Assembly (NCBI RefSeq): GCF_000147875.1
Contig: NC_014507.1
Coordinates: 1,302,001-1,366,000 of the forward strand
Length of the DNA: 64,000 nucleotides
Reading direction: 5' to 3'
From: Methanolacinia petrolearia DSM 11571
Lineage (GTDB): Archaea > Halobacteriota > Methanomicrobia > Methanomicrobiales > Methanomicrobiaceae
The position numbers and the translations under genes are program-made. Position 1 is the first letter of the stretch. Each line of letters begins with the position of its first letter. Below are positions 26,347 through 60,085 of this stretch, in pieces. A model generated the notes under the pieces. It saw nothing but the letters and a program-made list of their open reading frames with translations. It searched no databases and was not told where the DNA came from.

Positions 26347-26792
26347 TTTTAATTTGTTATAAAAATCTGGATCAGGATACATAAATCCCTTGTCCTGATT
26401 CCCGCAAGCTTTCTGGCTCTTTGCTGTTTCATATATTTCTCAGGCAACCCCGGACACCACCGGCCAAAGGCCGGTGGACGGCCCCTGCCTAGGGGCCTTG
26501 CCTTAAGATAGCCCTCTCACGGCACGCTCAGGGGACCGGCGAGGGTCCCCTAAGCTGTGTCTTTTAACATATTCCGTCCCGTACACACTATGATTTTACC
26601 GCATCTCGTCGCTCAGGGGATACTTGTCTATCCCCTGTGCGGCCTTTCACAATTGAGAGGCCCCGAGGTCGGGGCCGATCCGCGAACCTGCTGTGCGGTT
26701 CGCGGCGAGGGGTTGTCAAAAGTTGTGATACTTGCTATTATACCCACACAGATTAACGAAGAGCCAAAAATAATCTCTTTTAATTTGTTATA
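26347..26792. repeat. 15-bp direct repeats flanking structured element copy 1
   Basis: The identical 15-mer TTTTAATTTGTTATA occurs at 26347-26361 and 26778-26792, bracketing the structured element. It could be a target-site duplication left by insertion, or sites for deletion by recombination. Between the left repeat and the element lies a small hairpin (ATCAGGA 26371-26377 with TCCTGAT 26393-26399) that may terminate the upstream gene. Confidence 0.55.
26414..26766 (+). repeat. Structured multi-hairpin repeat element, copy 1
   Basis: An outer inverted pair (TGGCTCTTTG 26414-26423 with CGAAGAGCCA 26757-26766) encloses a 275-nt core (26443-26717) closed by GGCAACCCC/GGGGTTGTC. Inside are six hairpins: 26457-26477 (9 bp), 26481-26496 (6 bp), 26530-26551 (8 bp), 26614-26637 (9 bp), 26659-26676 (6 bp) and 26681-26704 (8 bp). 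It lies between two convergent genes and has no coding capacity. The core is present again, at the same length, at 46468-46742 with compensatory changes in several stems. This indicates selection on a folded RNA or DNA form. I do not recognise it as a known RNA family. Confidence 0.75.
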
Positions 26793-46320: not shown

Positions 46321-46742
46321 GGCTCTTCGCTGTTTCATGTGGGTAAATAATTTCGGGACAGCAAACAATTACCGAAATTGCTTTGCATTTTCTCGTCCTC
46401 ACATGTGTTCGGATATTACATACATGGCACTGTCGTGTTGCTCACATACCTTACTATACCTTGCTCGGGCAACCCCGGCACCGGCGGTCAGGTCCGCCGG
46501 ACGGCCCCTACCCAGGGGCATTGCCTTAAGATAGCCCTCTCATGGCACGCTCAGGGGACCGGCAAGGGTCCCCTAAGCTGTTGAATTTGTTTTTTTGACA
46601 TATTCCATACGCATTATGAGCCTACCGCGTTTTTCCGCTCAGGGGATACTCGTCTATCCCCTGAGCGGCATATCATGATGAGAGGCCCCGAGGTCGGGGC
46701 CGATCCGCGAGCCTGCTGTGCGGCTCACGGCGAGGGGTTGCC
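46321..46742 (+). repeat. Structured multi-hairpin repeat element, copy 2
   Basis: The core (46468-46742) is 275 nt, the same length as copy 1, closed by a perfect GGCAACCCC/GGGGTTGCC stem. Six hairpins correspond: 46481-46500 (CCGGCGG/CCGCCGG, new sequence but paired), 46504-46519, the AGGGGACC stem, a 14-bp stem CCGCTCAGGGGATA at about 46635-46668, GGCCCC/GGGGCC, and CGCGAGCC/GGCTCACG. A 5' box GGCTCTTCGCTGTTTCAT (46321-46338) matches copy 1 at 17 of 18, but about 130 nt of unrelated DNA separates it from the core. Imperfect 14-bp direct repeats lie at 46345-46358 and 46813-46826. It follows the NEW3 gene. Confidence 0.75.
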
Positions 46743-55513: not shown

Positions 55514-55816
55514 TTATTTCAGTTTTTCAATCTCTTCTTCGACTTCTTCATAACCCTCTTTGTAGAATCCTTCCTCGTCGGGGGCCAGTTCGCGCAGAAG
55601 GCGGAGGAACTCTCCGGCATGCACTTTCTCTTCATCAGCAATATCGAGCAGTACTGCCTTTGCCAATTCGTTGTCCGTGGATTCGGCAAGCTGAACGTAG
55701 AGCTGTATTGCTTCGTACTCTGCCGAGACCATGAACCTGATTGCTCTTATCAGTTCGTCGGGGGTAAGCTTGCGATCGTTTTTGAGACCTGCAAAAGGAT
55801 TTCCAAATTCCGGCAT
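55514..55816 (-). CDS. Mini-ferritin of the encapsulated-ferritin type (EncFtn-like)
   Basis: A 100-aa two-helix ferritin-like protein. Iron ligands are in MVSAEYEAIQLY and the DIADEEKVHAGEF helix. The spacing and the flanking SAEYEAIQLY/EEKVHAGEF pattern follow the N-terminal ferritin part of Pyrococcus encapsulin as I recall it, where the enzyme sits inside a protein shell. The C-terminal tail is acidic. The start is ATG 55816, as the GTG at 55825 is part of the ribosome site. No encapsulin shell gene is in this window. Confidence 0.72.
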   Translation of the reverse strand: MPEFGNPFAGLKNDRKLTPDELIRAIRFMVSAEYEAIQLYVQLAESTDNELAKAVLLDIADEEKVHAGEFLRLLRELAPDEEGFYKEGYEEVEEEIEKLK

Positions 55817-55951
55817 TTTAATCACTTTCCTATGGTTACAAGTCCTTATATGGAGAGCATTTCTTATTAATTTATTGCAGGTTTGTTTTGGTTGGTTTTA
55901 GTACATTAACCGTTTTCTCTAGATCAGACCGGATTTAGCAATATTTATGTT

Positions 55952-57235
55952 TTAATTTTTAGGATCGCATTGTTCTCCGGATTTTAGCATCCGATCATGT
56001 ACGCGATATAAGTAGAGTATAAAACGTGCACCAAATCCAATTAAAAGAGAACTCCCGGCCAGCACGGTAAGCCCGCCAAGCAGAATGACCACCATAATAT
56101 CCTGTCCGGTGAAAATGTCGTGAATCATCAGACCAAGCTCATTTTCCCAGATATACAGTACAAACGCGAGTATCAGGACAGTGACCACTATTGAGAGAAC
56201 ACTATAGGTACTGTATATTATCTCTTCACGGTTGAACCGGGTTCCTGAGCGCAACTTCGGCACTAATTGTGTTTTTAGAAAATCAAATGATTTCCGGCGT
56301 AATTGCGGCATCTCAAGGAGATCCATCAGGCAATAGTAGCCGTCAAGTTCCAATAGAGGATTCAGGTTCAGCAGTGCAATCAGATAGGTGATATATGCGG
56401 CCTGAAACAATGCCTTTGTATAGTCTGAGGGAGGAAGAACGAAGGCAAGAATTGAAATGATTCCTCCAATTATTACATTAACTATCGGTCCGGCAAGTGA
56501 TACCATTATACGGGGAGTCCGGCCGGACATCCACATATCGCTTACATCAACGAAAAAAGTAGGCATGCCATAGTAAAACATCAATCCGGCTTTGTGAATT
56601 TTGCGCCCGAAATATTTACAGGCAAGGCCGTGTCCTGCCTCATGCCAAAACAGTACTATCCAGCCGGATAGGATCAATATGAGCAGGCCGTAACTATATA
56701 TCTCGTTGAATGTAAGCAGTTGAAACTCTTCCGTCGGCTCCAGGATAATGAAACAGATAATGCCGATAACTGAAATCAGGATAAATGCAAAGAGAGCGGC
56801 CCTCGTAAAAAAGAAGTGTCCGATACTTTCATAAATCCTGGTAAACCATTTATCAGCCTGATTCCAGTCAAACTCACGCTGGTATGTCCCGTCAGCGAGA
56901 TTTGTGAGAAGAGGAACAAAACCGGTCTCTGTATCCGGATTAGCGGGTTTGGTCCGGGTTTCAATTAAATGATTTTCTTCAAGCTGTTGTATGAGCGTAT
57001 CCAGCCTCTCCAAAGGCAGTGATCCAAATCTCTGGTAATAAGCAATTGCAAGATCCGTGAGATTGTGCTCCCCGTTCATCATCTCCCACAGAAAGTAGTT
57101 CTCTTCATCTATTGCAAGGTAGGATCTTTTGTCGGGATTGTGCAGTATATAGTATGTATCCCCTCTTCTGGTTCGCTCAAAACGAACCATTGAGTGAGGC
57201 ATTTGACGTGGTTTTAATATTGATTTTTCCGGCAT
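55952..57235 (-). CDS. PqqD-domain/M50 site-2-protease-like membrane protein (RiPP locus)
   Basis: A 427-aa membrane protein. Residues about 15-92 match the PqqD-like winged helix (RRE) that recognises RiPP leader peptides (YLAIDEENYFLWEMMNG). Then come several transmembrane helices with the M50 zinc motif H198-E-A-G-H202 (FWHEAGHGL) and the third ligand Asp298 (LNPLLELDGYY). Such proteins are found with peptide-modifying clusters and may cleave, or help export, the modified peptide. It follows the radical SAM gene by 55 bp. Its substrate is inferred from context. Confidence 0.85.
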   Translation of the reverse strand: MPEKSILKPRQMPHSMVRFERTRRGDTYYILHNPDKRSYLAIDEENYFLWEMMNGEHNLTDLAIAYYQRFGSLPLERLDTLIQQLEENHLIETRTKPANPDTETGFVPLLTNLADGTYQREFDWNQADKWFTRIYESIGHFFFTRAALFAFILISVIGIICFIILEPTEEFQLLTFNEIYSYGLLILILSGWIVLFWHEAGHGLACKYFGRKIHKAGLMFYYGMPTFFVDVSDMWMSGRTPRIMVSLAGPIVNVIIGGIISILAFVLPPSDYTKALFQAAYITYLIALLNLNPLLELDGYYCLMDLLEMPQLRRKSFDFLKTQLVPKLRSGTRFNREEIIYSTYSVLSIVVTVLILAFVLYIWENELGLMIHDIFTGQDIMVVILLGGLTVLAGSSLLIGFGARFILYLYRVHDRMLKSGEQCDPKN

Positions 57236-57290
57236 ACCAAATCCTGTTTTTCCATACCATAACGCAAATGATCATTCCGAAGTTATGCTC

Positions 57291-59087
57291 TCACGAACGC
57301 AAGACGCCCAGACTCAGGTACTTCCCGCCCGAGTATATCATCAGATCGTCTGCGACAAACTGATCCAGGACCGCCTGAATCCCGGTCCTGCTCACCCGAT
57401 TCATCTTTAAAAGCGCCTGAATCGTTTGTGCTGTATCGCACTGAAGATAAAGATCGGCGGCAAGATCGTTGTAGTTGTATTCATTCATGGTTCCTTTGCG
57501 GGTGTCCTTGATCGTGATCGATTTTCCGGAAGTAAAGACGTCCAGAACGGCATCGGTCCGGGATTTCCATTCCTTCAGGACAGCAATCAGATCCTGCGCA
57601 TAGATCTCTGATATATCGTTGTATTCAGCATCAAAGTAGTGGGCAATATCGTAGAGATCGTCTTCCGGTAATGAATGAAATATATGCCTGTATACATTTG
57701 AAGGCACAAGGCGGGTGATCCCGTATTTGGAAGGTTCTTTCCAGTAGGCGCTGAAGCGGTCGAAACGAATATGACCGTAGCTATTTGGAGGAGCCAGGTG
57801 CCGGATTTTGGGAATAAACTGTATCATTGCCGCGTATTCGTTCGGGTCTTCGCCGGGGAACCCCCATAATATATTATAGGATACATCAATGCCAAACTGT
57901 TTTCCCCATTTCAGAATCTGGATATTATGTATGAGTTTTGTTCCCTTTTGCATCAGCCTGAGAACGCTGTCATTCAATGATTCGATACCCACCTGTAATT
58001 CAGTAATACCTGCACATGCCAGAAGCCTGACCTGTTCGCTGGTGAGACTCGCTTTAACTTCCCAGAAAAATTTAATTCCTTTTTGATCGGCAAGTTGAGG
58101 TAGCAGAGTCTGAAAGTACTGTTGGGCCATGATATTGTCTGCAACATGGATCTTATTTCCGTAGTTATCCTGTACATATTGTATTTCATCCAGAACACGC
58201 GTAGGTGATTTGCAACGGAAGAGCATACCCCTCGGATTGAATCCGCAAAAAGTACATTGCTTTTTTTCTCCCCACCAGCACCCGCGTGAGGTCTCGATGG
58301 GAATGTTGATATCTAAATCAGTCAGTTTCCTGCCGGATTTCAGTGTATCGAAATAATCCGAATAATCCGGAAATGGGAGACAATCCAGATCTTTAACCAG
58401 GCCGCTTTCACAGGTTTTTCCAGAGTTCCGGGAGACTACCCCGGGAATCTCCGGGACAGGATCATCATTAAGAAGAGTTTTGATCAGTTTAGGGACTGCC
58501 TCATCACCTTCGCCTGTACAGACATAATCAATGAACGGGAACAGGCGGCATAGTGCTTCGCCCTTTGTCCCGAAGCAGTTGGCGCCGCCAAAGAGTATTT
58601 GGATCTCAGGAAACTTTGATTTGATTCGTTTTGCCAGGGCAAGAGAAGCACAATGCTGCTGAAAGGACGAACTGAAACCAACCACTGCATAACGGGACCA
58701 GTCCGTTTCTTCAACAAATTTGTCCAGAAATGAGGGTAGTCGATCACGGATTTCAAACAATTCTTTTACAATAAATGGAGTAAATACGTCCTTGTATTTT
58801 TTCCACAGGACTTCCTGCAGGTATGCAAGATCCGCATCAGGATTTTCACCGAAAGCCGACGGGGCAAATAGCCATTCTCCAAGCATCAGTTCTATGGGAG
58901 TGGTGGATGCAATCATGCCATGTAGTCGTCCGAGCTCCTCATCAAGCAGGAGATTGACATAGTGAATGTCGCATCCGATGCCCTCTTTTAAAAGTGCACT
59001 CTTGAACATTGAAATACCCAGGGGAGGGATTTCAATCAAACTGAACGGAGGATATATAAATGCTACACCAGGACCTTCAAAATCCAT
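57291..59087 (-). CDS. B12-type radical SAM RiPP maturase (rSAM ocin-1/TIGR03975-like)
   Basis: A 598-aa radical SAM protein. The N-terminal region (1-250) resembles a cobalamin-binding domain (IYPPFSLIEIPPLGI, FGGANCFGTKGEA). The cluster ligands C270-x7-C278-x2-C281 (CWWGEKKQCTFC) have the enlarged spacing typical of RiPP maturation protein 1. The C-terminal 60 residues (AADLYLQCDTAQTIQALL...LMIYSGGKYLSLGV) look like another RRE-type winged helix that could hold the leader. Family members modify peptides carrying Nif11/NHLP-type leaders; the chemistry here is unknown and could be C-methylation. It lies between the two precursors and the protease, 110 bp downstream of the first precursor. Confidence 0.87.
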   Translation of the reverse strand: MDFEGPGVAFIYPPFSLIEIPPLGISMFKSALLKEGIGCDIHYVNLLLDEELGRLHGMIASTTPIELMLGEWLFAPSAFGENPDADLAYLQEVLWKKYKDVFTPFIVKELFEIRDRLPSFLDKFVEETDWSRYAVVGFSSSFQQHCASLALAKRIKSKFPEIQILFGGANCFGTKGEALCRLFPFIDYVCTGEGDEAVPKLIKTLLNDDPVPEIPGVVSRNSGKTCESGLVKDLDCLPFPDYSDYFDTLKSGRKLTDLDINIPIETSRGCWWGEKKQCTFCGFNPRGMLFRCKSPTRVLDEIQYVQDNYGNKIHVADNIMAQQYFQTLLPQLADQKGIKFFWEVKASLTSEQVRLLACAGITELQVGIESLNDSVLRLMQKGTKLIHNIQILKWGKQFGIDVSYNILWGFPGEDPNEYAAMIQFIPKIRHLAPPNSYGHIRFDRFSAYWKEPSKYGITRLVPSNVYRHIFHSLPEDDLYDIAHYFDAEYNDISEIYAQDLIAVLKEWKSRTDAVLDVFTSGKSITIKDTRKGTMNEYNYNDLAADLYLQCDTAQTIQALLKMNRVSRTGIQAVLDQFVADDLMIYSGGKYLSLGVLRS

Positions 59088-59197
59088 ATTATTTATTATC
59101 TGTCAAATCAGGAATAAATTTGTTTATACGTTAATTTATCTTTAAAATAATAATTATGTTCAGAATAAAGATCTTTTTAAGTTATTCATATGGTCTG

Positions 59198-59413
59198 TCA
59201 TATGACTATTCCAAGTGATTTTGGGAATCTTTCTTCGAGAACTTTTGTGATCCCTTTGGCATCTTCAGATTTAAGTGCTTCCAGTTGCTCATTTGTGAGT
59301 GTATATCCTGCTTCACTTGCTGCTTCTTCCGGGTTTGCTGTTAATTTTTTGCGGAATTCTGCATCCGCAACAGCACGCCCGATTAGTTCATACATTTCCT
59401 TCTCTGTTGCCAT
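59198..59413 (-). CDS. RiPP precursor peptide 1, NHLP/Nif11-like leader
   Basis: A 71-aa acidic peptide. The helical leader (ELIGRAVADAEFRKKLTANP at about 9-28, then EAGYTLTNEQLEAL) is of the nitrile-hydratase-like/Nif11 type that binds modifying enzymes. The C-terminal segment ends ERFPKSLGIVI. It lacks a Gly-Gly site, cysteines or long Thr/Ser runs, so the core is unusual; the conserved KSxG region may be modified. It is immediately upstream of the radical SAM gene. RiPP precursor status is an inference from family and context. Confidence 0.78.
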   Translation of the reverse strand: MATEKEMYELIGRAVADAEFRKKLTANPEEAASEAGYTLTNEQLEALKSEDAKGITKVLEERFPKSLGIVI

Positions 59414-59689
59414 TTTTATACCTCCAGTTTATCCTTATTTTATAGAAGATGCTATTTATTTATTCTGTAATAGAGAGGAATCAGATCGCTCATTTTTTTC
59501 ATGGAAAATATTCCGCACCATGTATCAGATCATAAATCAACTACAGAATTGTCGGGAAGGCTTAGAACAAATCAATTCCTGCAAAGGATATCCTGAATAT
59601 TCCGGTGGAGAGAACAGTAAAACCGGATTAATAAAATAATAATTATTTTTGGATGAAAGATTTTCTTAATTTATTCATATGGTCTGTCA

Positions 59690-59905
59690 TTATAGAGGTT
59701 TCCCAAATGATTTTGGGAACCTTTCTTCGAGCACTGTTGCGATCCCTTTGGCATCTTCAGATTCAAGTGCTGCCAGTTGCTCGTCTGTGAGAATATATCC
59801 TGCTTCTTTTGCTGCTTCTTCCGGGTTTGCTGTTAATTTTTTGCGGAATTCTGCATCCGCAACAGCACGTCCGATTAGTTCATACATTTCCTTTTCTGTT
59901 GCCAT
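59690..59905 (-). CDS. RiPP precursor peptide 2, NHLP/Nif11-like leader
   Basis: A 71-aa paralogue of precursor 1, nearly identical through the leader (five differences in the first 50 residues, by my count), while the tail diverges: ERFPKSFGKPL against ERFPKSLGIVI. The conserved leader with a changing C-terminus is what a modified-peptide system predicts. The start is the ATG ending at 59905; a longer frame to 59989 includes the promoter. The last five residues hold most of the difference. Confidence 0.76.
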   Translation of the reverse strand: MATEKEMYELIGRAVADAEFRKKLTANPEEAAKEAGYILTDEQLAALESEDAKGIATVLEERFPKSFGKPL

Positions 59906-60021
59906 TTGTTTACACCTCCGATTTATTCTCAATTTATAGAAGATAATATTTAAAAATTCTGTAATTACGAGAGGAATCAGATAGCGCATGCTTTTCGTGG
60001 AAAATTTAAAAAAACAGATTC

Positions 60022-60085
60022 AACAGCTTAAGGGACCCTTGCCAGTCCCCTGAGCGTCCCGTGAGAGGGCTATCTTAGGGCAAGG
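60022..60085 (-). repeat. Remnant of the structured repeat element
   Basis: A 64-bp inverted-orientation match to the central part of copies 1 and 2, from the AGGGGACC hairpin to the GCCTTAAGATAGCCCTCTCA segment (about 26497-26555 in copy 1). The hairpin loop is GGCAAG, as in copy 2. The outer stems are missing. It is next to the RiPP locus and may mark a boundary of insertion or transfer. Confidence 0.7.

Follow-up and report, generated by a model that had tools for sequence, protein, structure and literature searches.

A probable RiPP cassette with a B12-dependent radical SAM maturase and an RRE-M50 protease in the methanogen Methanolacinia petrolearia

Background

The closest described systems to the locus reported here belong to ribosomally synthesised and post-translationally modified peptides (RiPPs). 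The B12-dependent radical S-adenosylmethionine (SAM) enzymes PoyB and PoyC and the bottromycin enzymes have an unusual Cx7Cx2C motif, and PoyC methylates the C-beta of Val and Ile (PMC5682303, PMC11285071). M50 proteases act as EpeP for epipeptides (cleavage and probably export), as MpaP for daptides and as TglG and TmoG for pearlins (PMC10885120, PMC10036551, PMC7026026), and nitrile-hydratase-type leaders are otherwise cut at a double Gly by C39 or C1A proteases (PMC10885120). According to a study from 2025, no more than two lanthipeptides from archaea had been validated until then, and radical-SAM-modified archaeal RiPPs remain predictions (PMC12144867). Here, a stretch of 64,000 nucleotides (the window, 1302001-1366000) of the single-contig genome of Methanolacinia petrolearia DSM 11571 (2,843,290 bases) was found to carry a four-gene cassette with two small precursor peptides (A1 and A2), a B12-dependent radical SAM maturase and an M50 membrane protease. 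The cassette was acquired horizontally and is probably a RiPP cassette in which leader-guided C-methylation would be followed by leader removal by the protease and release of a small product.

Maturase, protease and precursor peptides

The 598-aa protein was unambiguously assigned by profile to the TIGR03975 B12-dependent radical SAM maturases, as the earlier note on this DNA had proposed, with 593.8 bits (cut-off 281.85) over positions 1-605 of the 606 in the profile. The cluster motif was found as C270-x7-C278-x2-C281, and Cx7Cx2C was kept in 11 of the 12 relatives compared. The score with the Pfam B12-binding profile was 29.1 bits, slightly below the cut-off of 32.1. Fold search with the maturase model produced 12 matches with E < 0.001, all of them B12 radical SAM enzymes (TokK, TsrM, OxsB, CysS). 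A C-terminal RRE in the maturase was considered because a beta-beta-beta-helix-helix-helix arrangement was modelled at residues 515-579, but the predicted local distance difference test score (pLDDT) there was ~30 and neither profile comparison nor Pfam supported the domain, hence it was rejected.

The 427-aa protein is, judged from its sequence, an RRE/PqqD leader-binding domain fused to an M50 membrane protease, with the daptide protease as the nearest family. It passed the cut-off of PF02163 (M50) with 30.9 bits against 27.2 and showed the motifs HEAGH at residue 198 and NLNPLLELDG at residue 290. The daptide protease model NF041824 was matched over residues 17-368 with 175 bits (E 2e-51), which missed the cut-off of 300, and the LiaK/YydH model with 72.9 bits, under the cut-off of 225. 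In addition, the protease profile matched the archaeal site-2 protease MJ0392, and the M50 protease SpoIVFB was found lower down in the fold search. The N-terminus matched PqqD at E 4e-4 with 21.1 bits, slightly below the cut-off of 23.4; all four protease relatives matched PqqD as well, and the homologue in genome G343 exceeded the Pfam cut-off with 28.6 bits. These results agree with the M50 protein with a PqqD-like domain described in the earlier note. The first ~90 residues were modelled as three strands and three helices, for which the top Foldseek matches were the RRE domains of leader-bound TbiB1 and of PqqD (probability 0.96-1.00); the E-values of these matches were weak (≥ 0.09) owing to the small size of the domain and the poor quality of the model.

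Both precursors are 71-aa paralogues and both exceeded the cut-offs of NF038399 (Os1348 family; 40 bits) and of Pfam PF14407 (48 bits), with the scores given in Table 1. They were below the cut-off of 50.9 bits for TIGR03793 (NHLP) with 23.7 and 23.3 bits, and Nif11 and TIGR04509 were likewise missed. Thus, of the earlier description as paralogous peptides with nitrile-hydratase/Nif11-like leaders, the paralogy was retained and the leaders were placed in the Os1348 branch, not in NHLP or Nif11 proper. The precursor profile also matched nitrile hydratase and PDB entry 6lk7 (85 aa), which we take to be the Os1348 crystal structure going by its length and label. A genome-wide profile search showed that A1 and A2 are the only Os1348-type precursor genes of M. 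petrolearia.

A1 and A2 differed at 7 of 66 positions over residues 1-66 and at 4 of 5 positions over residues 67-71 (p = 0.0016), and the same trend was seen when the precursor of the related genome G115 was added (p = 0.008); the boundary between leader and core was picked after viewing the alignment, so that both p-values are indicative only. The three peptides have the same length and the variable tails LGIVI (A1), FGKPL (A2) and FGKII (G115). Because of this tail divergence and because the Os1348 model ends at residue 60-61 of A1 and A2, the product-coding core seems to be ~5 and at most ~10 residues long. Such tails are unusually short, far shorter than the cores of the relative G128, whose three precursors share 76-82% identity as far as residue 67; beyond it, each continues into a different tail of 14-18 residues that is rich in Gly and contains Cys. 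No GG for double-Gly cleavage was found in A1 or A2, and the tail analysis agrees with the earlier statement that the product has no Cys and no classic cleavage site.

Insertion, horizontal transfer and selection

In two congeners (G111 and G112), blastn and the junction sequences showed a clean empty site, with the flanks joined where M. petrolearia holds the cassette, and therefore a ~4.3-kb insertion took place in M. petrolearia. Apart from some non-coding sequence, the inserted segment consists of the four genes; gene calls, Pfam and blastn against the congeners showed no fifth gene in it. Comparison of the junctions showed no convincing repeat between the insertion ends that would represent a target-site duplication. 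A near-identical set of precursor, maturase and protease was found in G115, a Methanomicrobiaceae metagenome-assembled genome of another genus (JAFGWE010000031.1), with amino acid identities of 86% for the maturase and 88% for the protease. The contig of G115 begins 76 bases ahead of its precursor, so that G115 may have a second precursor. Between M. petrolearia and G115, the synonymous divergence (dS) of the cassette was 0.37 and 0.28, far below that of nadA (dS 3.0; 67% nucleotide identity), and therefore the two genera exchanged the cassette, or obtained it from the same donor, after they had separated. The cassette has thus moved horizontally between methanogen genera. The ratio of non-synonymous to synonymous divergence (dN/dS) against the homologous locus was 0.18 to 0.19 for maturase (0.18) and protease, which indicates that the cassette is maintained and is not a chance feature.

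A viral or proviral origin was rejected as no relatives were found in IMG/VR. The rubrerythrin-like gene at 55514-55825 was rejected as a fifth member since its position is beyond the inserted segment, since G111 and G112 have it although they lack the cassette, and since in G115 it is reduced to a frameshifted remnant. This gene flanks the cassette in both M. petrolearia and G115 (L006:3740-4021) with the same junction sequence, and this common flank suggests a role of flanking homology in the transfer.

Co-occurrence and related loci

Among the genomes of the order, the TIGR03975 maturase was present in 3 of 232 and the RRE-M50 protease in 4 of 231, and the same three genomes carried both (Fisher p = 2e-6, a guide only since the genomes are non-independent). 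Precursors adjoined the maturase and protease in all three, in line with the co-conservation of the four genes that had been anticipated. The fourth RRE-M50 protease (G199) was a fragment at a contig end with the zinc motif HVFGH, which is without the Glu. In a tree of 12 maturases, those of M. petrolearia, G115 and G128 formed one clade (100/99), while that of G408 was placed elsewhere with weak support.

In G128, which represents a third lineage, the set was rearranged but kept together; its locus holds two precursors and a PapB-like radical SAM/SPASM enzyme, and a third precursor is encoded elsewhere. G343, a genome outside the order, had an Os1348 precursor, an RRE-M50 protease and a PapB-like enzyme, with no TIGR03975 maturase at the locus. 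The loci of M. petrolearia (B12 enzyme), G343 (PapB-like) and G128 (both) show that the precursor and the RRE-M50 protease stay paired while the maturase varies. G408 (L010:768-3016) had a TIGR03975 maturase and upstream of it a 108-aa weakly NHLP-like protein ending in VVPLFSITIPF, and no RRE-M50 protease was found in its genome. For bacteria, where the sampling covered plasmids and one phylum, no RRE-M50 protease was found beside TIGR03975 in a KSB1 genome, in Niallia and Paracoccus plasmids or in the stretches retrieved around other bacterial loci. A match from Tistrella was rejected as an RRE-M50 protease because it is an HlyD-type secretion protein with no maturase.

Some other Os1348-type loci were also observed. 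The G343 cluster (L032:4695-10649) has an RRE-M50 protease with an N-terminal extension, a geranylgeranyl-reductase-type flavoprotein and a MinD-like ATPase. In G128, an orphan Os1348-type precursor with the tail LGCGAGGLGLSISMGPS (contig C57, L035:6196-6450) lies away from the cluster and adjoins a large membrane protein. In G333 (L034:3011-6023), an Os1348-type precursor whose tail includes SGCSYHLCG is beside a PapB-like radical SAM/SPASM enzyme and a 319-aa protein.

Proposed pathway and alternatives

In the pathway that we consider probable, both the maturase and the protease, the latter through its RRE domain, would bind the Os1348-type leaders of A1 and A2. By analogy with the C-beta methylation of PoyC and bottromycin-type enzymes, the maturase most likely C-methylates side chains near the precursor C-terminus; in LGIVI the candidate residues are Val/Ile, in FPKSFGKPL they are Phe, Pro or Leu. 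Removal of the leader by the M50 protease, at the membrane or within it, would then free a product of ~5-10 residues, which would probably be released outside, as is thought for EpeP with epipeptides. The product would most likely be a small signal or growth inhibitor, and we conjecture that the short hydrophobic tail suits a peptide signal or a membrane-active inhibitor. A more far-reaching proposal, put forward tentatively, is an archaeal peptide signal or inhibitor in which a folded leader of ~66 residues precedes a core of only ~5. A PoyC-type enzyme would C-methylate this core, and an M50 protease guided by its RRE would release it across the membrane; the system would then form a new class of RiPPs whose core is among the smallest known, spread between methanogen genera as a four-gene cassette.

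Several points weigh against the probable pathway. The A2 tail contains neither Val nor Ile, and TIGR03975 members need not all methylate; ApyD, another B12 radical SAM RiPP enzyme, is not known to act as a simple methyltransferase. The structure models were built from three sequences and had a mean pLDDT of 48-52 (maturase 48). With three copies the statistical depth is small, and a recent transfer connects the two that are most alike. In addition, no transporter or immunity gene was found at the locus. The earlier note had read the locus as a complete modification, processing and export system; its RiPP-type nature was upheld, while export is kept here as a prediction only, as the locus has no transporter.

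A rather doubtful alternative is that the maturase carries out another chemistry on the tail (cyclisation, epimerisation, oxygenation or rearrangement) with the rest of the pathway unchanged. The chemistry of B12 radical SAM enzymes is varied, the matches of the fold search include a ring-contraction enzyme (OxsB), and the composition of the A2 tail would fit. However, the NCBI family name and the characterised Cx7Cx2C enzymes (PoyC, and bottromycin enzymes by proposal) are those of C-methyltransferases (PMC5682303), the substrate is without Cys, and no second radical SAM enzyme with SPASM is present at the locus.

It is distinctly unlikely that the precursor is a pearlin-like carrier, that is, a reusable scaffold of 66 residues followed by one to a few final residues that alone receive the modification, so that clipping by the M50 protease inside the cell would yield an amino acid or dipeptide in modified form. 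The M50 proteases TglG and TmoG do so for pearlins (PMC10885120), and the variable part is just ~5 residues at the extreme C-terminus, but neither a PEARL (LanB-like amino-acid ligase) gene nor another gene for tailoring was found at the locus, the protease matches daptide and epipeptide proteases, a leader RRE is not expected of a C-terminal clipper and the relative G128 has cores of 14-18 residues. A decaying or non-functional remnant of a larger G128-like cluster, with truncated cores as its short tails, would account for five-residue tails where G128 has long ones with Cys and for the lack of the PapB-like enzyme, but it is highly improbable given the dN/dS of both enzymes, their intact catalytic motifs, the equal length of the A1, A2 and G115 precursors and the recent transfer of the same minimal set.

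Features and surroundings of the locus

M. petrolearia DSM 11571 (SEBR 4847, formerly Methanoplanus) is a cultured methanogen from an offshore oil well (PMC3035365). It is a mesophilic, culturable type strain with growth at 37 C. Gene calls bore out the position of the four genes on one strand as first described (Table 1). A2 starts with ATG and has GGAGGTG ahead, and alignment of upstream regions showed an element much like the upstream box of A2 also ahead of A1 (59414-59500) and of the G115 precursor. The boxes that precede A1 and A2 are TATA-like. The cassette has a malic enzyme as its upstream neighbour and the rubrerythrin-like gene downstream. An Rfam scan gave no match.

Table 1. Features of the cassette, with positions in the window.
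Feature	Position	Strand	Description
Precursor A2	59690-59905	minus	71 aa; Os1348-type leader residues ~6-60; variable tail FGKPL; NF038399 69.5 bits, PF14407 54.9 bits
Precursor A1	59198-59413	minus	71 aa; 85% identical to A2; variable tail LGIVI; NF038399 71.9 bits, PF14407 54.7 bits
B12-dependent radical SAM maturase	57291-59087	minus	598 aa; TIGR03975 (RiPP C-methyltransferase family); Cx7Cx2C
Membrane M50 metalloprotease with N-terminal PqqD/RRE leader-binding domain	55952-57235	minus	427 aa
Inserted segment	55878-60168		~4.3 kb, all four genes inside; blastn against G111 and G112 and junction sequences
A2 upstream region	59906-59990	minus	AT-rich box TTTAAATATTATCTTCTATAAATT and GGAGGT; alignment of upstream regions

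A truncated copy of a dispersed structured repeat was observed at the cassette edge (window 60008-60085), with further copies near 26496-26558 and 46521-46607. At least 39 copies were found in M. petrolearia and 41 in G111, at most one weak match each in G112 and G115, and none in G113. The repeat has a 12-bp hairpin, in which 4 pairs showed compensatory changes across 20 copies, followed by more GC hairpins. The hairpin loop CTTGCC is able to pair with a downstream GGCAAG, so that a pseudoknot is possible, and the repeat had no Rfam match over threshold.

Comparison with known systems

This minimal locus is under selection, was transferred recently and belongs to a cultured strain, so that production and release of a C-methylated peptide by a methanogen is directly testable, while the persistent pairing of protease and precursor with a changing maturase is a handle for archaeal RiPP mining. 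The earlier view that the chemistry resembles no described class was not sustained, since the PoyB/PoyC-type maturase, the daptide RRE-M50 protease MpaP and the epipeptide and pearlin M50 proteases are all known (PMC11285071, PMC5682303, PMC10036551, PMC10885120). In the open-licence literature, neither the combination of TIGR03975 with RRE-M50 nor an experimentally studied methanogen example was found, which is weak evidence of novelty.

The maturase shares with PoyB and PoyC its architecture, the Cx7Cx2C motif and a substrate with a nitrile-hydratase-like leader. In contrast to polytheonamide, the locus here is archaeal, the leader is short and of Os1348 type, the tail has ~5 residues instead of 49, there is no epimerase, and an M50 protease takes the place of the C1A protease PoyH. 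Proteusins likewise have a nitrile-hydratase-like leader, whereas here there is no double-Gly motif, no C39 or C1A protease and a TIGR03793 score below the cut-off. The precursor family NF038399 is common to Os1348 of Pseudomonas sp. Os17, and the paper on that cluster mentions no radical SAM enzyme (PMC7726476). From pearlins the locus differs in that no PEARL ligase is among the genes of the inserted segment.

The fusion of RRE/PqqD and M50 is common to MpaP, the RRE-fused intramembrane peptidase of daptides (NF041824; PMC10036551), over residues 17-368. Unlike in daptides, however, the score is under the cut-off, none of MpaB, MpaC, MpaD and MpaM is encoded in the inserted segment, and the precursors end in Ile or Leu with no C-terminal Thr. 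With the epipeptide locus (epeXEPAB or yydFGHIJ) the common logic is a small precursor, a radical SAM enzyme and an M50 protease thought to cleave and export; here, a B12 TIGR03975 enzyme replaces the epimerase, there is no ABC transporter and the LiaK/YydH cut-off is not reached. Overall, each component has a described relative, so that the locus is not new in kind, and TIGR03975 together with an RRE-M50 protease and an apparently tiny core in an archaeon seems to be a new combination.

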